Assembly: GCA_013388845.1 (NCBI GenBank)
Contig: JACAEN010000011.1
Span: forward strand, 62,001-126,000
Direction: 5' to 3'
DNA: 64,000 bases
Origin: Chloroflexota bacterium
Lineage (GTDB): Bacteria > Chloroflexota > Dehalococcoidia > GIF9 > AB-539-J10
Below are positions 15,743 to 36,538 of this stretch, one piece after another; position 1 is the first letter of the stretch, and each line of letters begins with the position of its first letter. The notes below the pieces were generated by a model. It was not told the DNA's origin. It searched no databases and worked only from the letters and a program-made list of their open reading frames with translations. The translations under genes and the position numbers were made by a program.

Positions 15743-16507
15743 CTAGATTTCCTCTTGTTCCTCATCCTCCTCAGGCGCAACCCCACCATAACGAGGGAGC
15801 ATCACGTCTACTTTAGTGCGGCGACCTCTGGCTCCTCTGGGTAGTTCGCTAATCATCCTCTTTAGCTCTGCCAGTGCCTCAACCGACTGTGTTGAAGGCG
15901 CAACTACGCCATCTACCCCAGCTTGCCATAAACTGGTTAGCTCAGCCTTCGCGACTAAGGAAGGCAAGGACATGATAACTGGCTTCTCTAAAAGCTCGAC
16001 GAGCCTTCGGCAAACAAGCAGATGCTCTACAGTGACAGAAGGCTCTCCGCTTCTGCTGCTGATAACCACACCGTCTACTCCAAGGCTATTAATGGCTCTA
16101 ACAAACCCTGGGTCTAACGAAGGCTCTATCATCAAGAATTTGCCTATCCCCTCTTTGTGTAAAACCGCGGCAGGTACTTTGATGTCAAAGACCGCAAAGT
16201 CACACCCCGCGCTCACAAGCTCGTTTATTTTCTCTTCGCTCATGTCTTTCACAAGTATCCCCACAGGGATATTGCCCATAGCCTCGACCATTTGCTTAAC
16301 AACCTTGGCGCTTGTGTCCTCGCTCATTATCAAGCCAGCATCAGCATTGGCCTCAGCCACGGTTTTGGCTTCCTTGACCTGTGTTCCGGATAGACCAGCA
16401 ATAAGCAACATTGCCGAGCTTTTTAGTTCAGAGGCGGACGGATGAAAGCCTATGGGCGCGGTTGCAGACTTAGAAAGGCTCTGCAATTTATCCACAAATT
16501 TGCTCAT
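15743..16507 (-). CDS. Conserved protein with TIM-barrel-like beta/alpha repeats, acidic C-terminal tail
   Basis: Alternating SAGCDFAVFD / GVDGVVISS / AGVDGVVAPS elements; tail EEDEEQEEI. Confidence 0.6.
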   Translation of the reverse strand: MSKFVDKLQSLSKSATAPIGFHPSASELKSSAMLLIAGLSGTQVKEAKTVAEANADAGLIMSEDTSAKVVKQMVEAMGNIPVGILVKDMSEEKINELVSAGCDFAVFDIKVPAAVLHKEGIGKFLMIEPSLDPGFVRAINSLGVDGVVISSRSGEPSVTVEHLLVCRRLVELLEKPVIMSLPSLVAKAELTSLWQAGVDGVVAPSTQSVEALAELKRMISELPRGARGRRTKVDVMLPRYGGVAPEEDEEQEEI

Positions 16508-16797: not shown

Positions 16798-18075
16798 TCA
16801 GGGGCTCACTTTCCTGGGTGCTCTAATAAAGGCGAGAAGTATCAGTGCTAGGATAGTGCATATGCCACCCACCATGAAAGCCAGGTAATAAGTGCCTGTT
16901 ACATCATATACGCGTCCTCCGAGGAGCGGTCCAATTGCTCCCCCGATGGCTACCCCTAACATTTGAACACCGACAATTGCGCCTATGGACTTAAGCTTAA
17001 AGATTTCCCCAGCTATCACCGGGAGCTGGGGGACACAACCGCCATAGGCAAACCCGAAGACCGCGGCAAACAGATAGAGCATCCATATATCTGTGGCTCT
17101 CAGGAGCCAGAACATCGCCAAGGCTTGGAGGACCAAACAGATAGCGAGTGTGCGCTTTCCCCCTAGTCTGTCGGAGACGGCGCCCATGGCCAGTCGGCCG
17201 ATAATGCTCAAGACGCCGATTACAACCAGGAACTTAGCAGCCACTATCTCAGGTATGTTGAGGCCGATTGCATGCTTATCTATATTAATCATTACCATTT
17301 GGAGACATATAGACCAGAAGATAATTATGGCCAGCAATAGCCAGAATGCTCTGGTTTGAGCTGCGTCTTTTAGTGAGAATCCTGCTCTTTCTGAAGTAAG
17401 GCTGTCTTCTTTTATATTTTGATTCTTCTCATCTCCTGCTATCGCCTCAGCCTTGCCCAATGGTAAAAGCCCCTTGTCCTCAGGACTACGCCATAGCAGC
17501 AGTGCACCTGGGATAATAATGGCCCAGGCCACGAGCCCAAGAATGATATAGGTCCAGCGCCATTCATAAGTATCGATGAGGTATCTGGCTAGTAGAGGTA
17601 TGACCGCTGTGCCCACCCCTGTTCCGGCAACAACAATACCTACCGCTAGACCTCTTTTCTGCACGAACCACCTTGATGCTGTGGCCACTAAAGGAGCAAA
17701 GGCCACACTTAGTCCGAAGCCGACCATTAGGCCGTAGAATAGATACAATTGCCAGGCAGCGCTGATTCGGCTGGTCAATATCAGGCCCAAACCCAGAAAA
17801 AAGCCTCCGATGGCCACTGTTATTCTGGGTCCGTATTTGTCGGTGGCCCGTCCGGTGAGGATAGCTAGGGCGCCACGCGAAAACATGAAAAGCGAAGCGG
17901 CTCCTGTTACTAATGCCTGACTCCAGCCGAAAGCTTCTGACAGAGGGTCGAGGAATTTGCCGAAGGAGTATTGGACACCGTAAGCAACAAGGGCCACGCA
18001 GAAGGCGGCGGCTACTACTACCCAGCCGTAGAAAAGTCTTTGAGTTTTCGCTTGGTCAACTTTGCCAGATTTCAT
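16798..18075 (-). CDS. MFS transporter, OFA (oxalate/formate antiporter)-like
   Basis: 12-TM-like sequence; FYGWVVVAAAFCVALVAYGVQYSFGKFLDPLSEAFGWS, SRGALAILTGRATDKYGPR. Confidence 0.88.
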   Translation of the reverse strand: MKSGKVDQAKTQRLFYGWVVVAAAFCVALVAYGVQYSFGKFLDPLSEAFGWSQALVTGAASLFMFSRGALAILTGRATDKYGPRITVAIGGFFLGLGLILTSRISAAWQLYLFYGLMVGFGLSVAFAPLVATASRWFVQKRGLAVGIVVAGTGVGTAVIPLLARYLIDTYEWRWTYIILGLVAWAIIIPGALLLWRSPEDKGLLPLGKAEAIAGDEKNQNIKEDSLTSERAGFSLKDAAQTRAFWLLLAIIIFWSICLQMVMINIDKHAIGLNIPEIVAAKFLVVIGVLSIIGRLAMGAVSDRLGGKRTLAICLVLQALAMFWLLRATDIWMLYLFAAVFGFAYGGCVPQLPVIAGEIFKLKSIGAIVGVQMLGVAIGGAIGPLLGGRVYDVTGTYYLAFMVGGICTILALILLAFIRAPRKVSP

Positions 18076-19467
18076 TCAGGCCTCCTGTCGCATATCTTTT
18101 ATCAATTTTTTAGCTCGAGTGCTTTTTTGTAGTGAGCCGGGGGTTACCAGTTGTATCTCGGGTATGGTCATTTTCCCCGTTTTGACATTTTTTTGAACCG
18201 GCGGGACTTTTAATATCACTTCCCTTACCAGTTCTTCGACCGCTGCTCCTGTTCTAGCTATCTCTACCTGAAAGGTCAGCTTATCTTTGCCGCCATCCTT
18301 GCTAACGCTCACTTCATAACCAACGATGTCAGGAATTGTATAAAGTGCCTCGTCAAACATGGCGGGATATATCTCGTCCCCGTCTCCTATCCTTACTACC
18401 GACTCCAGCCTTCGAGTTACCTTATCCAGCCTCTTGAGAGCGGTTATGCCACACGTGCAAGGTTTGCTACTCAACCTGGATATATCGTGTGTTCTGTATC
18501 TGATTAGCGGCATCGCTTCCCTAGTTAAGGTGGTAAAGACTAGTTCTCCCTCCTCTCCCTCAGGCAAAACCTCCCCGGTTTCCGGGTCTATAATCTCGGC
18601 CAGAAGGTCAGCCTCGTTAAAGTGGTAGCCATTATGGGCTGAGCACTCTACTGCTACTCCTAACCCCATCTCGGTTAACCCGTAGTGGGTGAAGACTTCA
18701 CAATTCCACGCAGACTGGAGGTTAGCCCTCATCGAGTCAGAGAGATAGTTAGAAGTGAGGAACAAGACTTTGACCCCTAATTTTGTTAAATCATGATTTT
18801 TTCTAGCTTCCACCGTAATTCGATTAAGGCGAAGTGTCTCACAAAACAAAACAGTTGAGCCGTGTCTCTTAATGGCCTGGATTTGCTCCTCGGGAGTTGG
18901 CTCAATTCCAGTGACGACTGGCGTAGCCCCCATTTTCTTGACACCTTGTGCCAGCAGGTCAGACTGTCCTAAGACCATACCCTTGGGCAGCATTATCTGA
19001 ACGACATCGTCGCTGGTAGCTACCACGCTCATGCCTGCCCCCATAAAATCGGTCATTACCTCAATATCCTTTTCACTAAAAAAAATCCTCTTCTGCGGGC
19101 CAGTGGTGCCTGAGCTGGTAAAAGTAATTACTCGGGTCACATCTCCTAGAGGAACACATACGAATCTCAGGGGGTTCTCGGCCAATTCCTTGGGGTCAGT
19201 CAAAGGCAGCTTAGCTAAATCCGCCAGGGATTGGACTTCACTCGGCTCTATGCCCTTTTTGCTGAACAGTTCTCGGTAAAACAGGCTCTTGTCATAAGCA
19301 TAGTGTAAAGTATTCCGAAGCTGGAAAAGTTGAAAATCCTCCAAATCACGTCGGGTTAATTTCTCCAGGCTTTTCTTAGCAATACGTTTACGGTATTCTG
19401 GAGTCTCCTTTATTCTTTGTGTAATTATCTTGTTGAGTGACTCCTGTAGAGAAATCCGCTCGGCCAT
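18076..19467 (-). CDS. PaaK-like AMP-dependent acyl-CoA ligase
   Basis: VITFTSSGTTGPQKRIFFSEKD; THYGLTEMGLGVAVEC; PLIRYRTHDISRL. Confidence 0.9.
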   Translation of the reverse strand: MAERISLQESLNKIITQRIKETPEYRKRIAKKSLEKLTRRDLEDFQLFQLRNTLHYAYDKSLFYRELFSKKGIEPSEVQSLADLAKLPLTDPKELAENPLRFVCVPLGDVTRVITFTSSGTTGPQKRIFFSEKDIEVMTDFMGAGMSVVATSDDVVQIMLPKGMVLGQSDLLAQGVKKMGATPVVTGIEPTPEEQIQAIKRHGSTVLFCETLRLNRITVEARKNHDLTKLGVKVLFLTSNYLSDSMRANLQSAWNCEVFTHYGLTEMGLGVAVECSAHNGYHFNEADLLAEIIDPETGEVLPEGEEGELVFTTLTREAMPLIRYRTHDISRLSSKPCTCGITALKRLDKVTRRLESVVRIGDGDEIYPAMFDEALYTIPDIVGYEVSVSKDGGKDKLTFQVEIARTGAAVEELVREVILKVPPVQKNVKTGKMTIPEIQLVTPGSLQKSTRAKKLIKDMRQEA

Positions 19468-19482
19468 GTGATTTGCCTCCAG

Positions 19483-20832
19483 TTATGCTATCCCCGGATA
19501 AAGACGCTGCCCAGCGACGCTGGTCAAGTATTTGGCACATAAAGGTACCATCTTCCCGGTAGAAGTAATTATGTGAATACAGCATCTCTTCAGTCTTTCC
19601 AGGTCGATATTCCAGACATCTTGAAAGGCCATGCCTGAAATGTATAAATACTCCCTTTGCAGATGCTGTAATAAAGTGCTAAAAGGCGCTGGCTTATGTC
19701 GAGGTAACGGGCAGCGTTGTACCTCATCTTCCTCAACAAATCTCCAATATCGCTTGGCAAATCGTCGGGAATGCTCAGCTCCATCCTCATTGATTCGTCT
19801 CGGTTCCAAGTGACTGATTGGTAATAACTTCCCATCCATCAATACGAAAAAGCCTGAAAAAGAGCAGTGAGGATGCTCGCAGACGGGAGGCGCAAAGTTG
19901 CTCTCCCTTAACTCTCCGTTCGTTTGTTCCTCAAGAGCTCTGATTATATCTGGTATGGTCAGCCTATCCTCGTCCCCGGGTGTTCCTGGATATCTGCCGA
20001 AGTAACTGACTGGCTGGAAGTAAACTCCTTTTACTGTGGGCACCCAGCTCTTAGCAAACTGGACGATGTCTCCTATCTGCTCAAAATTGACATTGGGGAT
20101 GATTGTGGGTACCAGCGTAACCCCTATCTTGACTTCGGCGCAATTGCTTATGGCTTGGACCTTGAGGTCGAAGAGGCTTGCGCCGCGGGTATAACGATAT
20201 ACGTCATCAGTTACACCATCAAACTGAAGATAGATAGTGGTAGCCCCGGCCTCCTTTAATCTACTCAGATATTCCTTATCTTCGGCCAATCTGATGCCAT
20301 TGGTATTTATCTGGATATGATTAAAGCCCAGTTTCTTGCCCATAGCAATAACCTGAGGCAAGTCCTCCCGGACAGTTGGTTCCCCACCGCATAGTTCTAC
20401 AGGATATGCCCCGCAAGTATCCAAAATGACTTGGTACATCCTTTTGATGCTGTCCAAGGAAGGCTCATAGACAGGTCTTTCGTCGCCATAGGTAAAACAG
20501 ATAGGACAATGAAGGTTACACCTATTAGTAGTCATAATAGCTACAGAAGAAGTGTCTTGTTCATGGTCCGGACAAATGCCACAGTCATAAGGGCAACCTC
20601 CATTATGACTGGTAAGCCTCTTTTTGGGACCTACAGGAGTTCCATTACCGCCGAACTCCGCCCATTTGAGGTAATGTTCAGCATCCTTTCTCCAGATGAT
20701 AACTTTATATTCGCCATGTCGGGGGCAACTTTTCTCCAGATAAACCTTGCTGTCTTCGGTGGTTATCTTCGCCGGTATCCGGCTCAGACAGACTGGACAT
20801 AGGCTCTCTGTTTCGTTCAGTATCTCTTTCAT
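19483..20832 (-). CDS. Radical SAM protein, Tes/TrsS-like family, paralog 1
   Basis: LCPVCLSRIPA; GCPYDCGICPDHEQDT; radical SAM CNLHCPIC; CEHPHCSF; C-terminal RLKRCCIHIITSTGKMVPLCAKYLT. Confidence 0.88.
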   Translation of the reverse strand: MKEILNETESLCPVCLSRIPAKITTEDSKVYLEKSCPRHGEYKVIIWRKDAEHYLKWAEFGGNGTPVGPKKRLTSHNGGCPYDCGICPDHEQDTSSVAIMTTNRCNLHCPICFTYGDERPVYEPSLDSIKRMYQVILDTCGAYPVELCGGEPTVREDLPQVIAMGKKLGFNHIQINTNGIRLAEDKEYLSRLKEAGATTIYLQFDGVTDDVYRYTRGASLFDLKVQAISNCAEVKIGVTLVPTIIPNVNFEQIGDIVQFAKSWVPTVKGVYFQPVSYFGRYPGTPGDEDRLTIPDIIRALEEQTNGELRESNFAPPVCEHPHCSFSGFFVLMDGKLLPISHLEPRRINEDGAEHSRRFAKRYWRFVEEDEVQRCPLPRHKPAPFSTLLQHLQREYLYISGMAFQDVWNIDLERLKRCCIHIITSTGKMVPLCAKYLTSVAGQRLYPGIA

Positions 20833-20858
20833 CCCATTAGTATTATCCAGATGAATTC

Positions 20859-22259
20859 CTAATCTGTGCGAGACAGAGTGATATCTGTGGGAAGATTCTG
20901 ATACAGCCTTTCCCCGCTAATACTGGTGACATAAAAGGCACATAGAGGTATTAGTTGCTTATTGCTGGTGACAACGTGAACGCAGCATCTTTTTAGCCTG
21001 TGTAAATCGAGTGTCCATACATCCTGGAAGGGCATGCCGGTAATCGTCAGGTAGTATAGGCTTTCTCTTTCTAGGAAACGTCGCCAGGCCTCCTGATTTG
21101 GCCCACAGCATTGACCACACCCTTTCTCAGTTTGTTTTGGCTTTTCGCTAGCCAATCTCCAACGTCTACTGATAAAGTTTCTCGCTGTTACTGCCGGAGG
21201 ATCTTTTCTATAGCCAAATCCACTTACTGCTTCCTGGGCGATGTCTGTCCTCGCTTGTAATTTGCCGTCTTCCATCAGTACAAAAAAGCTGCTAAATGAA
21301 CAGTGCGAGTCCTCACATCTGCGAGGCAGAAAATCTGTTTCTTTAAGTTCGCCGTTGGTCTGGGCGACTAACCCATTCACAATATCTGGTAGGGTTACCC
21401 TATCTTCGTCTTTTGGTGACCAGGGATACCTGCCAAAATAGCTAACCGGTTGGAAATGGACACCCTTGACAGTAGGTATCCATTGTTTAGCAAATCGGAT
21501 GATGTCACCTAGCTGGTGAAGATTAACATTGGGAACCACAGTGGGCACCAGGATGACCCCCATCCTCACCTCCGCACAGTTGCTTATTGCTCGAACCTTG
21601 AGGTCAAATAGGTTTCTACCACGGATAACGCGATAAACATCGTCAGATACACCATCGAACTGGAGGTATATCAAGTCAGCACCACTGTCTTTTAGCCTCG
21701 CCAGATATTCCTTATTTTGAGCTATTCTGATGCCGTTGGTGTTTATCTGAATATGATAAAACCCCAATTTCTTGCCCAGAGCTACAATGGCGGGCAGGTC
21801 GTCCCGTAAGGTAGGTTCCCCACCACTCATCTGCACCGGATAAGGTCCACCCGCTTCTACGATGGTTTGATACATTCCTCGGATTGTAGCGATATCCGGT
21901 TCAAAGCGGGAACCTTCGTTGCCGGAAGCGAAGCAGATAGGACAATCGAGGTTACACTTGTGGGTGACTTCCATCACGGTGGTGCATGTATCTGCCTCGT
22001 GATCGGGGCAGAGACCACAATCATAGGGGCAGCCCTGAGTAATATCAGTTAGCCTCTTTTGTGAACTGCCAGCTTGCTGGCTGTATTGGCTCCAATTGCG
22101 GTAAAGTTCAGCATTTCGCCAGATCAAAGCCCTGAAGCTACTGTGTTTGGGACAATCTTTTTCCAGATAAACATCTCCCCTTTCTACTACTCTCTTGGCT
22201 GGTATTCGGCTTAAGCAAACCGGACATAGGCTCTCTGTCTCAGTTAGCACTTCTTTCAT
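20859..22259 (-). CDS. Radical SAM protein, Tes/TrsS-like family, paralog 2
   Basis: LCPVCLSRIPA; GCPYDCGLCPDHEADT; CNLDCPIC; CEDSHCSF; RLKRCCVHVVTSNKQLIPLCAFYVT. Confidence 0.88.
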   Translation of the reverse strand: MKEVLTETESLCPVCLSRIPAKRVVERGDVYLEKDCPKHSSFRALIWRNAELYRNWSQYSQQAGSSQKRLTDITQGCPYDCGLCPDHEADTCTTVMEVTHKCNLDCPICFASGNEGSRFEPDIATIRGMYQTIVEAGGPYPVQMSGGEPTLRDDLPAIVALGKKLGFYHIQINTNGIRIAQNKEYLARLKDSGADLIYLQFDGVSDDVYRVIRGRNLFDLKVRAISNCAEVRMGVILVPTVVPNVNLHQLGDIIRFAKQWIPTVKGVHFQPVSYFGRYPWSPKDEDRVTLPDIVNGLVAQTNGELKETDFLPRRCEDSHCSFSSFFVLMEDGKLQARTDIAQEAVSGFGYRKDPPAVTARNFISRRWRLASEKPKQTEKGCGQCCGPNQEAWRRFLERESLYYLTITGMPFQDVWTLDLHRLKRCCVHVVTSNKQLIPLCAFYVTSISGERLYQNLPTDITLSRTD

Positions 22260-22328: not shown

Positions 22329-23093
22329 CTACGGCTTGGTCAAAGCGATAAGAGCATACCCAAACGTTGTTTGACTGAAAAACTCCTGGTAAGCCTCAAC
22401 AGGTATGGCACCGTCTCTTCCGTCTTTACCGAGACAATGCATCCCGGCTGCAACTTTAGCGAAGAATTTTGCAACGGAACCGTAGTTAACAGCTATCCAA
22501 TAACCTATCCTTTTCATTTCCTCCGGGTGGTCTTCAATGTAAGGATCTTGGAAGCCCGTTTTTTCGAAGAGACTGACGTATTCTTCCAGCCGTTTTGCCC
22601 CTGCGCAAGGAAGGAAAGTCATTTGGCATTGAAGCTTTTGGGGTATTTCTCTGCGAAGTACAAAATCTGTCACCACCACCTTTCCGCCGCGCCTTAAGAC
22701 ACGATGAAACTCCTTGGCAGCCCTTTCTTTATCTGCAAGGCCGGAGAAAACAGCTTCACACATTACGGTATCGAATGTATAATCTGGGAAGGGCAGCTGC
22801 ATCGCGTCAGCTACCAAGAATTGCACTCTGTGAGACAGTGCCTCAGTCCGAGCTCGCTGGTTAGCCAGAGCAATCATCTTATCTGAGGCATCAATACCAA
22901 TGACGTCACAAGCATATTGTTGGGATAAAAAGAGGGCTGACATTCCGTCTCCGCAGCCCACCTCCAGAACTGACCAACCTTCGCCAAGCTTAGCAACCTT
23001 AGCCGTTTGCCTAGTAAGTTCAAACCTGCCGGGACGCATTCCCCAGAATTGCACAAGGGAGTCAAAAGTTACATTAGCTGATGCTGATTTCAT
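22329..23093 (-). CDS. Class I SAM-dependent methyltransferase
   Basis: VLEVGCGDGMSALFLSQQYACDVIGIDASDKMIALANQRA; YTFDTVMCEAVF. Confidence 0.92.
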   Translation of the reverse strand: MKSASANVTFDSLVQFWGMRPGRFELTRQTAKVAKLGEGWSVLEVGCGDGMSALFLSQQYACDVIGIDASDKMIALANQRARTEALSHRVQFLVADAMQLPFPDYTFDTVMCEAVFSGLADKERAAKEFHRVLRRGGKVVVTDFVLRREIPQKLQCQMTFLPCAGAKRLEEYVSLFEKTGFQDPYIEDHPEEMKRIGYWIAVNYGSVAKFFAKVAAGMHCLGKDGRDGAIPVEAYQEFFSQTTFGYALIALTKP

Positions 23094-23330: not shown

Positions 23331-23594
23331 TTACTCCTTACCTATCCTTGACCTGTGTGAATAAGCCGTATGGATTATGTAGCCCTTTTCATCAGTAGAA
23401 TATTCGACGTAGATTGTCACCTCACCAAGCCTGCATTTAGCCAGGTATCTATTTCCCTCTGGTTGATATAGTTTCTCACCCCCGGTCTCGGCAAAGTCTA
23501 TTACCTTCTTCACCTCTTCCTCTGATATATGCCTATCCTCCAGCCGCTTCTTTACCTCATCGCCTACCTGCAACTTTATCTCTTCCCAGGACAT
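23331..23594 (-). CDS. Small conserved protein of unknown function within the radical SAM operon
   Basis: 87-aa ORF, 5 bp upstream of the small redox gene, same strand. Confidence 0.6.
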   Translation of the reverse strand: MSWEEIKLQVGDEVKKRLEDRHISEEEVKKVIDFAETGGEKLYQPEGNRYLAKCRLGEVTIYVEYSTDEKGYIIHTAYSHRSRIGKE

Positions 23595-23621
23595 ATTGAC
23601 ACCTCGCTTCTTAAAACATTT

Positions 23622-23778
23622 TTAATCCCTCTGATAACCAGTAAGAGCAATCAGATTTCTAGCGCTGTCGCGTAAGCCTTTGTGCTGTCGAGCTTTGCCA
23701 GAATCATGAAGAGTGAAGGTCTGACCATTCTGCTTAGCTACCTCGGGAATGCCTCTTTCCACCTCACGATTTTTGTCT
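23622..23778 (-). pseudogene. Remnant of a second HdrD/CCG-domain protein
   Basis: Open frame NWNRDKNREVERGIPEVAKQNGQTFTLHDSGKARQHKGLRDSARNLIALTGYQRD* aligns with EVIVENGLPKEYKGNGQTFSLHDPCKTRWEKEWHESARTLLTLMGYK of the adjacent gene; no start codon. Confidence 0.65.
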
Positions 23779-24903
23779 CGATTCCAATTGCGACTTTAGC
23801 GCTGCCTGATTCGCCTTCCTTACTTCTACGGAATTTGTCTTTTTTGTTTTATCCTTTTGCCAGTCAGGGTTAAAGAGGAGGTCGAGAATATGCACACTAG
23901 GTCGGCTAAGGGCGAAAGTCTCACGGCAACCTGCGCAGTAGGAAACTATGTCGAAGTGAGCCTCCGCTAATCTTTCTGTAGCCACGTTAAATACACGGAA
24001 AGGATTGAGACCGAGGCTCAGCCCTCCCTGCCCGCAACAGTAGGTTAGCTCTCTGGAATGTCTCATTTCCTCTATCTTATAACCCATGAGAGTGAGCAGA
24101 GTTCGAGCGCTTTCATGCCACTCCTTTTCCCACCTGGTTTTACAAGGGTCGTGGAGAGAGAAGGTTTGACCATTACCCTTGTACTCCTTGGGAAGCCCGT
24201 TCTCCACAATTACCTCATAGAGGCCTTTCAGTCGATAGTTGGGTGTAGTCTGCTTGATAGTGTAGTAGCACTCCGGACAACCAGTAATTAGCTCTGACGC
24301 CCCTAATTTGTTCATCTCTTCTTCCAGTTCTCGCGTCATTCCTTGAAACTGAGAACCTTCGCCCAAGCTATGAGGAAGAGCCCCACAACATCTTAAGATA
24401 ATCCCCGTGCCCGGTAGCTTTTCCCTGAGATAATCCCAGACCTTAATAACGATGGAGGGTGAATATGCTGATAAACTACAGCCAGGGAACCAAACCCGTT
24501 CACATTTAGCAGTATCAGGGTCAGGGAGGGTCAGGGTGAAGGAAGGAGACTCGGCAAATTGTTTGAGGTCTTGTATAACTTTATGTCCGGGCAGTGGGCC
24601 AACTCCTTCCTCTACCAATTGCTCTCGAAGTGCTAAACACAAGTTAGAAATGTTCAGTCCGCGCGGACAAACTCCCTTACATAGCTCACAGATGTTGCAC
24701 GCATAAGGGACTTCAGGGTGCTGCCGGAAATAATCTCTCATCCCTAACAGGACCATGCGGACCACAGTTCTCGGATTGAAGCTGGCATCCACGTTTGCCA
24801 GCAGGCAGTTACCAGTGCATGCCCCGCACTGAATGCAACTTATGACCTCTCCAGACCGTGCCGCAATCTCTTTCTTAAGTTTTGAATCTAGCTTGTCCAT
24901 CAA
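23764..24903 (-). CDS. (Fe-S)-binding protein with 4Fe-4S dicluster and CCG domains (HdrD/HdrBC-like)
   Basis: CIQCGACTGNC, CNICELCKGVCPRG; CCG motifs RCCGALPHS and YCCGQGG. Confidence 0.88.
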   Translation of the reverse strand: MMDKLDSKLKKEIAARSGEVISCIQCGACTGNCLLANVDASFNPRTVVRMVLLGMRDYFRQHPEVPYACNICELCKGVCPRGLNISNLCLALREQLVEEGVGPLPGHKVIQDLKQFAESPSFTLTLPDPDTAKCERVWFPGCSLSAYSPSIVIKVWDYLREKLPGTGIILRCCGALPHSLGEGSQFQGMTRELEEEMNKLGASELITGCPECYYTIKQTTPNYRLKGLYEVIVENGLPKEYKGNGQTFSLHDPCKTRWEKEWHESARTLLTLMGYKIEEMRHSRELTYCCGQGGLSLGLNPFRVFNVATERLAEAHFDIVSYCAGCRETFALSRPSVHILDLLFNPDWQKDKTKKTNSVEVRKANQAALKSQLESRQKS

Positions 24904-24930
24904 TATTAGTCCTGGCGCTTAACTGACCTC

Positions 24931-26010
24931 TTACCCTTTGCTTAAGCCTTTGCCTTGTGATAGAAGAATCAAGATTTCTGAAGCTGCTGCCTTGGCCTGG
25001 GCTACCGTATCAGCGATGTCCTTAGGACTTTGGCAACATCCAGCGATAAAAATTCCATCGGCTGACGTAGCTACTGGCTCAAGCATAGCATGTCTCTCCA
25101 TGAAGAAGCCATCCTTTCTTCGGCTGATAGAAAAGAGGTTGGCAATTTTCTCAGCATCAGCCCTCGGCTCAATGGCAACACACAGGATAACCATGTCCAC
25201 CGGCACGCGGAGTATTCCGCCCGCCAGCGTATCCTCAACACAAACAACTAACTTTCCTTTTTCCTCCTCGTTTAGGGCACGGTTCGTAACACTGGCTACC
25301 TTGCCTCTTATCAAATTCACGCCTTCTTCGGAAAGGCGATTATAGAATTCCTCATGGCCTTCGCCAACACAACGCATATCGATATACATTTGGTATACTT
25401 GGGCATTCGTTTTTTCCATAATTACATGGGAATAATTGAGGGCATACATACAGCATACCCGTGAGCAGTACTCATGATAATTCTTGTCTCGGCTGCCAAC
25501 ACAATGTATAATAGCTACACTTTCCGGAGGCTTGCCATTTTTGAGCAGGATTTGGCCGCCGGTCGGCCCCGTAGCACTACACATTCGTTCAAATTCAAGG
25601 CTGGTGAGTACATTATCGTATTCCTTATAACCGTATAGAGTGATGACCGAGGGGTCGAAGACATCATAGCCTGTAGCTAGAATCACTGCGCCTACGCTTA
25701 CTTCGGTAAGTCCGTTGCGTGCCTTTTCCCGTATCTTGACTTTGAAATCGCCGACATGACCTGAGACCTCCTCAATCTCACTAGAGGTCATAAGCTTAAT
25801 GTTGGGATGAGATTCCAATTTTGTTATCTTGGGAGTGAGGATATCCAAGGCGGAATCCAGAGTAGGAAAGACTTTATCAAACTCGGCCATGTGCCCGCCA
25901 ATCCTAGGCTCCCTTTCTACCAGAATAACCTTGTATCCAGCTTCAGCAATATCCAGAGCTGCTTGGATACCAGCGATACCGCCACCGACAACAAGGTTAG
26001 TTTTGTTCAT
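24931..26010 (-). CDS. HdrA-like FAD protein lacking inserted and terminal ferredoxin modules
   Basis: VVGGGIAGIQAALDIAEAGYKVILVEREPRIGGHMAEFDKVFPTLD; retains CVGSRD...YCSRVCC. Confidence 0.88.
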   Translation of the reverse strand: MNKTNLVVGGGIAGIQAALDIAEAGYKVILVEREPRIGGHMAEFDKVFPTLDSALDILTPKITKLESHPNIKLMTSSEIEEVSGHVGDFKVKIREKARNGLTEVSVGAVILATGYDVFDPSVITLYGYKEYDNVLTSLEFERMCSATGPTGGQILLKNGKPPESVAIIHCVGSRDKNYHEYCSRVCCMYALNYSHVIMEKTNAQVYQMYIDMRCVGEGHEEFYNRLSEEGVNLIRGKVASVTNRALNEEEKGKLVVCVEDTLAGGILRVPVDMVILCVAIEPRADAEKIANLFSISRRKDGFFMERHAMLEPVATSADGIFIAGCCQSPKDIADTVAQAKAAASEILILLSQGKGLSKG

Positions 26011-26068
26011 GTCAACCTCCTATGAGCGCAAGGTATTTCAACCAGTCTCTCATCAGCGCTCCGCTTGA

Positions 26069-27229
26069 CTAAATCACTTCTTGAATCAGTTCTGATATAT
26101 CCTTAATTTCTAGGATATCGCCTTTGCCCATATCCAAGACGCTATCCATTAGATTGGTAATACAATAAGGGCAACAGGTAGCCAGTATATCTGCCTTAAC
26201 CTCGAGAGCTTCCTCTACCCTCCGGTTAGAAAATCTTTCCTCCTTTTTGGTTTCCATCCAAAACCTTCCCCCTCCGCCACCGCAGCAAAGGCTATTCTCA
26301 GCAGACCTGGGTAGTTCCACCAGTTCCAAGCCTGGGATACTCTTCAGGACTTCCCGTGGTGCATCGTATATACCACTATGACGCCCCAAATAGCACGGGT
26401 CATGATAACTCACTCTTTTCTTCAATTCTTTGGTAAATCTTAGCTTGCCGTCCCGAATAAGTATGGCTAAATATTGACAGAAGTGAAACACTTCAAAATT
26501 GCCTTTCAACTTCGAGTATTCGTTCTTGTAGGTGCTATAGCAGTGGGGCGAAGTAGTAACAATTTTCTTAACACCAGCTTCGTTAAAAGCGTTAATATTG
26601 CTCTGGGCTAAACTTTGGAATAAGGCCTCGTCACCCGCTTTGCGAACACTCTCGCCACAGCAAACCTCTTTAGCTCCCAGGATGCCAAAATCTACTCCAG
26701 CCTTTTTAAGGATATTAACTGCAGCCCGGGCAACTCGCTGGACTCTTGTGTCATATGCGGGAATGCAACACGGGAAGTATAATATTTCGGTGCCTTCGGT
26801 GTGGATTTTTACATCAAGGTCCTTTGCCCAATCTGCTCGTTTCCCCGGCTCCTCTCCCAGAGGATTACCAACCCCAGCAATATTTTTTAGTGTAATTCTA
26901 AGTGAGTCAGGTACCTTGGCCACACCTAGTCCCACAATGACCCTCCGCAGAGCCCTCATGACATCTGTCATTTCCACACCACGAGGACATTTCTGAGCAC
27001 AGGCGATACAGGTAGTACACATCCATATATCATCGGCTTTGAAGTCGACCAGACCAAGCTGTGCCTGGTGAATAAGCTTTCGGGTGGCAAACCGTGGCGG
27101 AAACCTGCTGACGAGGTTCCATGGGCAAATGGCAGTACAGAAACCACATTGATAGCAAGATTTGAGAGGGTCACCCCCGCTCTCTATTACGGCACCCTTT
27201 ATGTCCCTATCTGGATTTGTTGCTTTCAT
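26069..27229 (-). CDS. HdrD-like (Fe-S)/CCG protein
   Basis: CYQCGFCTAICPW, CTTCIACAQKCPRGV; EVCCGESVR and SLCCGGGGGRFW. Confidence 0.9.
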   Translation of the reverse strand: MKATNPDRDIKGAVIESGGDPLKSCYQCGFCTAICPWNLVSRFPPRFATRKLIHQAQLGLVDFKADDIWMCTTCIACAQKCPRGVEMTDVMRALRRVIVGLGVAKVPDSLRITLKNIAGVGNPLGEEPGKRADWAKDLDVKIHTEGTEILYFPCCIPAYDTRVQRVARAAVNILKKAGVDFGILGAKEVCCGESVRKAGDEALFQSLAQSNINAFNEAGVKKIVTTSPHCYSTYKNEYSKLKGNFEVFHFCQYLAILIRDGKLRFTKELKKRVSYHDPCYLGRHSGIYDAPREVLKSIPGLELVELPRSAENSLCCGGGGGRFWMETKKEERFSNRRVEEALEVKADILATCCPYCITNLMDSVLDMGKGDILEIKDISELIQEVI

Positions 27230-32931: not shown

Positions 32932-33831
32932 TTACAAAAGCAAATCGTTACTGAAGGAATCGCTTATCGTCGGTTTTTGCATCTGGCAGTTAGCCTTGGC
33001 GTAGTCGAAAGCCTCTTCAATAGTTACATCGGCGATACCTGGCAGGTTATCGTATCTGTCAGCTAGACCACTCAGCATCCCTTGGTCAACAAAGTAGTAA
33101 GAAAACTGGCCGTTCTGCCACGAGGCATCCTCGTAGGACACCCCACTCTCAGAGCAAGCCATGTTGATGACCCTACCCGGAGCCTGCAGGTCGGTCATAC
33201 CGCCGGCCAGGCAACTATCAAATATGAAAATAATCCTCGTGGTATTGAAGCCAGCGAACCAATCCCTTAGTTGCCCATCCCATATATAAACAAAGTTGCC
33301 ATATTGATTACCATCATGACTGACAATTGCCTCATCAATTTTTTCCCCGTCGCCATCACTTGCCCGGCCACTGGTGCCATGTCCGCTGAAGAAGAAAACG
33401 ACTTCATCGCTGGCTACCGCCTTCGATTTGATGTCATTAACAGCACCCTGAATCGCAGTAAAACTGGCATCCATGTCTAGAAGCAAGTGAATGTTGCTTG
33501 AGTTATACCCGTAGAGCGTGGTTAGGGCATTATACATGTCTTGCGCGTCATCATCGCAGTATTCAAGGTCATTGGCGTCGCCCGGGTAATCGGAAATACC
33601 AACTAGAATGGCATATTTGTCTCCTGAGCTTGTCGCACCCAGAATACCGGTGGCCGCTTGCTTTGCTGGCTTACTGCTGCCACCGGACTTGCCTTGAATG
33701 GTAACCTTTTTGACTAGCTCGACATCGGTCGCTGGCAACGGCTTGTTCATATCGGGCTTAGCCACGGCGGCTGGTGTTATGAGCACCAACATCAACATTG
33801 CCACTAAGACAGCAGCTATTAATTTTTTCAT
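32932..33831 (-). CDS. Secreted caspase-family (C14) peptidase
   Basis: Signal peptide; YAILVGISDYPG; catalytic His FFFSGHGTSG; catalytic Cys IIFIFDSCLAGG. Confidence 0.9.
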   Translation of the reverse strand: MKKLIAAVLVAMLMLVLITPAAVAKPDMNKPLPATDVELVKKVTIQGKSGGSSKPAKQAATGILGATSSGDKYAILVGISDYPGDANDLEYCDDDAQDMYNALTTLYGYNSSNIHLLLDMDASFTAIQGAVNDIKSKAVASDEVVFFFSGHGTSGRASDGDGEKIDEAIVSHDGNQYGNFVYIWDGQLRDWFAGFNTTRIIFIFDSCLAGGMTDLQAPGRVINMACSESGVSYEDASWQNGQFSYYFVDQGMLSGLADRYDNLPGIADVTIEEAFDYAKANCQMQKPTISDSFSNDLLL

Positions 33832-35254: not shown

Positions 35255-36538
35255 TTAGGCAGCGGGATTGAGGACGCGCCCGACGAAGAGAATGGCACCC
35301 GTCTCAATGTCGCGAATCAAAAAGATGAAAGGGCGGTCTATGGTGACTTCTACAGGATGTTCGGGTACCGATGTTATTCCAACAATCACTGCCGTGGCAG
35401 CCGCCGCCTCGGTGCCATCTTCATCCACGGCCACGAATGACTTGTGTATAACGTCTGATATGAGCAGCTCAGGATTGCCAGTCATTCCGGAGAAATCGGC
35501 GTCACCAGAGAAGGCAATCGGCATGCCCGTCCCGGCGAGGGTATCCTTCAGGCTGAATTCTGACTCAAATTCAAACTTGGGCATCGTCAGGGCAACTTGG
35601 GTCTGTCGCAGATTGCTTATAATCTCATAGACCTGCTGGGCCTGCAGCTCTTTTTCAAAAGCCTCGAAGTTCCCAGAGGCAGGAAGCAAAATCAGCATGG
35701 AGAGTTCACCGCCATCGTAGGGCAGCTCGACTGCCTGGTATCCTGCCCCTTCGGCGCAGCCGAACGACTCCGTCTGCTTCATCATGGGCACTGTTACCCG
35801 CCCGCCGTCAAGTAGGTAGAACGAGCCGTTTACTGTCAGGTCCTCATCGAAGGGGTACGCCCAGGCGGCATTGAAGTAGATGGCATTGGTCAGTACCAGC
35901 CTGGTCCATTCATCGATTGCGCCTCGCGGGATGAGGTCTTTGATCCGTTCCTCTGTCTGGTTGCTGACCCAATCATTGATGGCAAGGCGGGACTTTTCTG
36001 TCTCCGTTATGAAGTCCAGCACTCTTAAGCCGGCACCGTAGTTCTCAGCCAGGACATCGAGGAACTCGGATAGGAACTCATAATCTTTCTGCCCCCAGAT
36101 GGCGTTGACAATGTTCAGCCTGAATCCCTTGCCATCTTTGCCAGCGGCACCTTCGCCTCTCTTGGCAAGCTCGGCATCGAGCCAGTTGAATGCCGGGTGC
36201 AGCCTCTCCTGTTCCAGAAGGAAGTGAAGGGTAGCGGCCATCTGCTCCGCAGTTTCGCCACGCGCTCCGGCATAGGTCATAGCTAGCGCCAGCGAGATGC
36301 TATAAGGAGAGTAGAAAAGATTACCCTCCTGACCTTTAAGCGCCTGATAAAGCTTGAAGGCGAAGGCGCTGTTTCCTTCAACCAGCAATGCCTGCTCATC
36401 TGTGCTGATATTCGGCTCGGGTATCCGGTCTCTATCGGATCTGACTTCTTCGGCTACTGTCGGTTGAGCTAATTGAATAGAGGCTATCAGCGGCACCAGC
36501 AAAACTGAAGCTAATACGATTATCACTATCTTTTTCAT
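35255..36538 (-). CDS. Secreted serpin
   Basis: Signal peptide; NAIYFNAAWAYPFDEDLT; VIHKSFVAVDEDGTEAAAATAVIV hinge; RPFIFLIRDIETGAILFVGRVLNP. Confidence 0.95.
   Translation of the reverse strand: MKKIVIIVLASVLLVPLIASIQLAQPTVAEEVRSDRDRIPEPNISTDEQALLVEGNSAFAFKLYQALKGQEGNLFYSPYSISLALAMTYAGARGETAEQMAATLHFLLEQERLHPAFNWLDAELAKRGEGAAGKDGKGFRLNIVNAIWGQKDYEFLSEFLDVLAENYGAGLRVLDFITETEKSRLAINDWVSNQTEERIKDLIPRGAIDEWTRLVLTNAIYFNAAWAYPFDEDLTVNGSFYLLDGGRVTVPMMKQTESFGCAEGAGYQAVELPYDGGELSMLILLPASGNFEAFEKELQAQQVYEIISNLRQTQVALTMPKFEFESEFSLKDTLAGTGMPIAFSGDADFSGMTGNPELLISDVIHKSFVAVDEDGTEAAAATAVIVGITSVPEHPVEVTIDRPFIFLIRDIETGAILFVGRVLNPAA

Follow-up and report, generated by a model that had tools for sequence, protein, structure and literature searches.

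Tandem TrsS-type radical SAM proteins in a Dehalococcoidia operon: an ordinary family member and a probably old, divergent paralogue

Tes (GDGT-MAS, MJ0619; PDB 7TOL and 7TOM; NCBIfam NF045702) is a radical SAM enzyme with several clusters, which couples unreactive carbon atoms. A hydrogen atom is abstracted from an alkyl chain and the substrate carbon is parked at the C-terminal [4Fe-4S] cluster, which has a labile Met ligand (PMC9433317). Tyr459 is completely conserved among archaeal Tes (PMC9433317). TrsS, the "radical SAM (seleno)protein TrsS" of NCBIfam (NF045646), resembles Tes and is widespread across anaerobic bacteria and archaea; selenocysteine is a trait of some members and not a requirement for membership. 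No function or biochemistry was found in the papers searched for TrsS or DVU1551-1559. Here we describe two TrsS genes in tandem, TrsS-A (upstream copy) and TrsS-B (downstream copy), in a 64-kb stretch of DNA (the window) from a Dehalococcoidia genome of 1.38 Mb in 52 contigs.

Both ORFs lie on the minus strand with 26 nt between them, and both are intact (Table 1). They were read as paralogues from the sequence alone, and this is correct: BLASTP aligned them with 255 of 461 residues identical (55%, 536 bits), and the coordinates and motifs quoted for them proved exact. An assembly duplication is ruled out by this divergence and by the occurrence of the same A-B pair in seven other assemblies. 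A degenerate copy is ruled out for the window by intact metal ligands and by low dN/dS in both genes: between the window and another Dehalococcoidia MAG (locus L063), dN/dS was 0.086/0.52 for TrsS-A and 0.074/0.45 for TrsS-B. Because the ratio is about 0.16 for each, both copies are maintained by purifying selection, which answers the selection test that had been suggested for each paralogue. A 942-aa 'open frame' in genome G036, a candidate for a fused A-B gene, was rejected, as a TAG separates the two ORFs. Promoter and terminator scans gave sites not above the level of shuffled sequence.

Table 1. Features of the TrsS pair and its neighbours in the window (positions count from the first letter of the stretch)
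Feature	Coordinates	Strand	Basis or remark
MFS transporter, last gene of the cluster	16798..18075	-	Pfam MFS_1; same place in L031 and L063
AMP-dependent CoA ligase of the DVU_1553 family, next gene after TrsS-B	18076..19467	-	NF045666, 371.3 bits (cut-off 300)
TrsS-B, 449 aa, divergent paralogue with the full set of metal ligands	19483..20832	-	NF045646, 552.7 bits; AF2 model; Foldseek; clade; signature
TrsS-B K434, two residues past the last C-cluster Cys	19531..19533	-	Y or F in 82/84 other TrsS
TrsS-B C148, directly before GGEP (CGGEP)	20389..20391	-	S in 84/84 others
TrsS-B E146	20395..20397	-	Q in 84/84 others
TrsS-B T114, two residues past the last radical SAM Cys	20491..20493	-	A in 83/84 others
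TrsS-B M100	20533..20535	-	E in 84/84 others
TrsS-A, canonical-type radical SAM protein, 466 aa	20859..22259	-	NF045646, 586.2 bits; AF2 model; Foldseek; ligand columns
GCGQCCGP, TrsS-A residues 380-387, variable linker	21099..21122	-	Not conserved
Class I methyltransferase, DVU_1556-like, upstream of TrsS-A	22329..23093	-	NF045667, 143.8 bits (just under the cut-off of 155)
87-aa protein, DUF4258-like	23331..23594	-	L066 relative matches the C-terminal 83 positions of NF045663
Dicluster (4Fe-4S)2 + CCG protein	23764..24903	-	Matches NF045663 positions 305-663
HdrA-like flavoprotein, part length	24931..26010	-	NF040770, 408.5 bits (below the cut-off of 1100)
HdrBC/TfrB-like iron-sulfur protein	26069..27229	-	Pfam and NCBIfam profiles

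With regard to the family, Pfam finds Radical_SAM and Zn_ribbon_HMPTM domains in both proteins, and both pass the cut-off of the TrsS profile (490 bits) and fall below that of the Tes profile NF045702 (369.3 bits for TrsS-A and 387.5 for TrsS-B, cut-off 450). Judged by these profile scores, they are TrsS proteins and not Tes. The sequence-only reading was right in seeing multi-cluster radical SAM enzymes related to Tes, though the family is TrsS. AlphaFold2 models, built on 62 TrsS sequences, reached pLDDT 89.0 and pTM 0.91 for TrsS-A and 91.2 and 0.92 for TrsS-B. The comparison with Tes that had been suggested gave 7tom and 7tol as the best Foldseek matches of both models, with 7tom on top over the full length (E 2.3e-48 and TM 0.79 for TrsS-A, E 4.3e-46 and TM 0.81 for TrsS-B, both TM by query length). 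Both proteins are therefore predicted to fold like GDGT-MAS, the only near full-length relative with a known structure. When aligned to Tes, whose ligands are given in PMC9433317, the putative ligands of TrsS-A are C12/C15/C36/H39 for the rubredoxin-like site, C77/C81/C84/H87 for [4Fe4S]N, C102/C106/C109 for the radical SAM cluster and C320/C425/C440 with M409 for [4Fe4S]C. In the window, both copies keep every metal-ligand Cys and His so assigned (rubredoxin-like CX2C...CX2H, N-terminal CX3CX2C plus His, radical SAM CX3CX2C and the C-terminal Cys set). The radical SAM, rubredoxin-like and C-cluster ligands and the Met equivalent to Met439 of GDGT-MAS are kept in all eight A and all eight B copies that we collected. 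It might be supposed from the closest solved structure, and from the proposal of Zeng et al. that bacterial Tes homologues make membrane-spanning lipids (PMC8941075), that the two proteins are tetraether or membrane-spanning lipid synthases and that the locus makes such bacterial lipids. We consider this very improbable, given the scores below the Tes cut-off, the replacement of the Tyr459 equivalent by Val429 in TrsS-A and by Ile at the same column in TrsS-B, and an operon without any lipid-biosynthesis gene, in which the neighbours are a ligase, a methyltransferase and redox proteins.

The same-strand genes follow each other in the order MFS transporter, ligase, TrsS-B, TrsS-A, methyltransferase, 87-aa protein, dicluster protein, HdrA-like and HdrBC-like proteins. 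By its position and similarity, the methyltransferase is best taken as a DVU_1556-type gene though it scores below the cut-off. In the window, the NF045663 protein, which is a single chain in other Trs operons, appears to be split into separate genes, because the relative of the 87-aa protein (last 83 positions) and the dicluster ORF (305-663) match different parts of the profile. Such a split is also seen in other Dehalococcoidia (window 23331-27229; L063 812-8913; L066 972-8895), and HdrA-, MvhD-, AsrA- and HydG-like genes adjoin it in L063 and L066. The ligase was found at 46 of the 47 bacterial loci with at least 3 kb of downstream sequence, and the methyltransferase and the dicluster/DUF4258 group each at 42 of the 44 with at least 3 kb upstream; the methyltransferase and dicluster genes are missing from most of the 28 archaeal loci. 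A C_GCAxxG_C_C gene is present in 34 and a molybdenum hydroxylase in 29 of the 53 bacterial loci. No molybdenum hydroxylase, XdhC-like or C_GCAxxG_C_C cluster was found within 9 kb in the window, L063, L073, L079 or L081. Moreover, two Bacillota genomes (G453 and G1062) have the pair and, elsewhere, one or two further TrsS operons that include a molybdenum hydroxylase. The pair therefore belongs to a second type of Trs operon, which is distinct from the canonical system, does without the molybdenum hydroxylase and coexists with the canonical one in these two genomes. The pair loci of Bacillota tend to carry 2-hydroxyacyl-CoA dehydratase-like (double-cubane) proteins, an activase and a pyridine-nucleotide oxidoreductase. 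The first were seen in L073, L227, L228 and L229, the activase in L073 and L227 and the oxidoreductase in L073, L227 and L228; a TetR-like gene was seen in L073 and L229. Elsewhere in the window, a 254-aa ORF (15743-16507) has no Pfam or NCBIfam match, and a caspase-like peptidase ORF (32932-33831) and a serpin-like ORF (35255-36538), both read from sequence only, lie less than 3 kb apart.

To place the pair in the family, we used a scan of GTDB genomes and further profile searches, which are samples and draw mostly on MAGs. Two tandem TrsS copies were present at four of the 80 TrsS loci that represent the best 80 of 193 matches to two peptide patterns. Searches with a B profile added three further pairs, which makes eight with the window, in Dehalococcoidia and Bacillota-side genomes. 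A second genome of the window's genus carries the same pair, and one pair besides that of the window was found in the window's family. Among 400 Chloroflexota genomes, the pair occurred only in the window genome and TrsS above the cut-off in one other. The eight B copies, from Dehalococcoidia and Bacillota alike, form one clade (bootstrap 100, SH-aLRT 99). Every B stands directly behind an A and, in all seven cases with downstream sequence, directly before the ligase; in the Bacillota pairs, the ORFs touch or overlap. Forcing TrsS-A and TrsS-B of the window and L063 into one clade costs 54 log units (p 0.012, AU test). Because the B clade is well supported and this sisterhood is rejected, TrsS-B is best read as an old paralogue kept beside TrsS-A and not as a fresh copy. 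The tandem duplication proposed from sequence, in the sense of a recent duplication of TrsS-A, is rejected by the same tree and test. A tree with all A copies as one clade was not rejected (p 0.136). With five pairs, the tree under this constraint even scored above the unconstrained quick tree, which does not count as support. The tree does not unite the A copies in one clade, so that a single origin of the pair is a candidate only; its spread by transfer and its descent with losses are two candidate histories, of which we prefer neither. The window's family includes two more genomes in which a gene for a Tes-like radical SAM protein precedes a methyltransferase gene (L032:2926-5143 and L033:5261-7415), downstream of glucoamylase-like and dihydrolipoamide-dehydrogenase-like genes; a His of the radical SAM protein aligns with Met439 of GDGT-MAS. 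In Candidatus Hadarchaeum, TrsS has a further radical SAM-like gene, shorter than itself, immediately upstream (L074:9047-9967).

The two copies differ sharply in how they treat the conserved core of the family. Among 76 single TrsS proteins, 53 positions are invariant; TrsS-A keeps all 53 and TrsS-B breaks five. Positions E97, A111, Q143 and S145 of TrsS-A are M, T, E and C in all eight B copies and in none of the 84 other TrsS. This signature was first seen in five of five B copies, and the three that were fetched after the pattern had been found all conform. Two further changes occur in B alone, V95 to A and F442 to K (A numbering), and at H268 seven of the eight B copies have Y or F. Control clades of comparable size have zero or one exclusive change at otherwise conserved positions. 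By alignment, the changed positions flank the radical SAM Cys loop, on the strand that leads into it and just past it, or lie in front of GGEP or next to a C-cluster Cys; the residues there would face SAM or the substrate. The sequence-only reading set the key differences near the clusters, and they are indeed found around the radical SAM Cys loop, though the telling changes are in TrsS-B and not in TrsS-A. The idea of two specialised copies is supported in this form, with TrsS-A as a normal TrsS and TrsS-B as a protein with fixed changes at otherwise conserved positions.

What these changes mean can be read in more than one way. TrsS-B may be a partner subunit of an A-B heterodimer, which holds its clusters for electron transfer or stability and performs little or no chemistry. 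The obligate adjacency, the constant A-B order and the touching or overlapping ORFs of Bacillota are consistent with such a subunit. So is the state of the six Bacillota B copies, all of which have lost two arginines, the SAM-contact Arg and the lid Arg (counterparts of Arg210 and Arg275 in Tes), and three of which also lack the N-cluster ligands; these copies could be drifting to a non-catalytic role there. The window's TrsS-B keeps the equivalents of both Arg and the N-cluster ligands. Moreover, all eight B copies retain the radical SAM Cys and the counterparts of the Phe, Gln and Ser through which Tes touches 5'-deoxyadenosine, TrsS-B is under purifying selection, and its changes are coordinated and fixed, unlike random decay, so that we regard a mere partner as possible but unlikely. 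Alternatively, TrsS-B could be a variant in substrate range, which carries out the same reaction as TrsS-A on a different substrate of the same pathway. Both share the same fold and clusters, and at locus L066 a Dehalococcoidia operon almost identical to that of L063 works with a single TrsS in the same context. TrsS-B is therefore not needed for the core pathway. However, the changes include residues that adjoin the radical SAM Cys loop and GGEP and that are conserved in all other TrsS, mostly in Tes-like rows too. This exceeds usual substrate tuning, and we find a range variant quite unlikely.

GCGQCCGP in the linker of TrsS-A had been noted as an extra Cys motif. It is present in TrsS-A as described, but it is not conserved even in the nearest A orthologue, which has GCGQGCGQ at the same place, and the six Bacillota A copies are without it. 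Because a vicinal Cys pair (CC) is common in the variable linker of the family (49 of 86 TrsS), the motif gives no evidence for an extra cluster, and this candidate was rejected; the motif may be a redox-active thiol pair. The sequence-only reading that neither copy is a selenoprotein stands for the window, where all ligand Cys are present and in-frame TGA is absent from both ORFs. Nor was an in-frame TGA inside the protein found among the TrsS relatives examined: the one flagged in L182 is at the natural C-terminus and those in L097 lie past it. A tRNA-Sec model matches in the genome, as it does in all 14 control genomes.

The explanation that we favour, with a little better than even confidence, is a Trs-type module of two obligately paired radical SAM enzymes, in which TrsS-A is the ordinary enzyme of the family and TrsS-B an ancient linked paralogue with a rewired barrel interior. 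By analogy, the best-supported chemistry for both is radical activation of unreactive carbon with assistance of the C-terminal cluster, because both keep the machinery of Tes. The neighbours suggest a carboxylate precursor (ligase), a methylated product (methyltransferase) and a supply of low-potential electrons (redox genes). We infer the electron route, the radical chemistry, the cooperation of the two proteins and the role of the substituted residues as follows. The Hdr/dicluster module upstream would supply low-potential electrons, and SAM would be cleaved at the C-X3-C-X2-C cluster of each protein into a 5'-deoxyadenosyl radical, which would take a hydrogen atom from the substrate. The substrate radical would then be handled at the C-terminal [4Fe-4S] cluster (three Cys and the labile Met), as in Tes. 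The DVU_1553-type ligase would activate a carboxylate and the methyltransferase would methylate an intermediate. TrsS-A would perform the reaction common to all Trs operons, and TrsS-B would add a related radical step, with the same intermediate or the next one as its substrate. Cys148, Glu146, Met100, Thr114 and Lys434 of TrsS-B may alter substrate fit or radical fate, Cys148 as a possible hydrogen-atom donor or sulfur ligand. Since TrsS-B is ancient, always behind TrsS-A and changed at several active-site residues that are otherwise invariant, the two probably do different steps of one pathway, and the sequential roles suggested from the sequence are plausible. A bolder version, which we think rather doubtful, holds that TrsS-B is a new type of radical SAM enzyme, whose added C148, Glu146 and C-cluster lysine change the fate of the substrate radical, and that the pair carries out an undescribed two-step radical reaction. 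The natural A/B pair is a direct handle on such questions, and swapping four to six residues should reveal determinants of reaction outcome in the Tes-like family.

Finally, the two proteins agree with described TrsS (NF045646) in passing its cut-off and in length, cysteine layout and operon partners (DVU_1553-type ligase, DVU_1556-type methyltransferase and dicluster protein). They differ in that there are two tandem copies, that TrsS-B has fixed substitutions where the rest of the family is conserved, that neither copy shows a selenocysteine, and that the ±9 kb compared include no gene for a molybdenum hydroxylase and none of the C_GCAxxG_C_C kind. With Tes/GDGT-MAS they share the fold (in predicted models), three [4Fe-4S] sites, the rubredoxin-like Cys3His site and the labile Met equivalent, whereas the scores below the family cut-off, the lost Tyr459 equivalent and the missing lipid context set them apart. 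Gms, the GMGT synthase (PMC11186832), is likewise a multi-cluster radical SAM enzyme that makes C-C bonds in anaerobes, but it has SPASM-type auxiliary clusters, another domain layout and no link to Trs genes. The canonical Trs operon with molybdenum hydroxylase (for example at L087, L104, L130, L233 and L234) shares TrsS, the ligase, the methyltransferase and the dicluster protein with the pair loci. It has one TrsS together with molybdenum hydroxylase, XdhC-like, NTP-transferase and C_GCAxxG_C_C genes, which the pair loci do without; several pair loci of Bacillota instead carry double-cubane dehydratase/reductase-like proteins and an activase.
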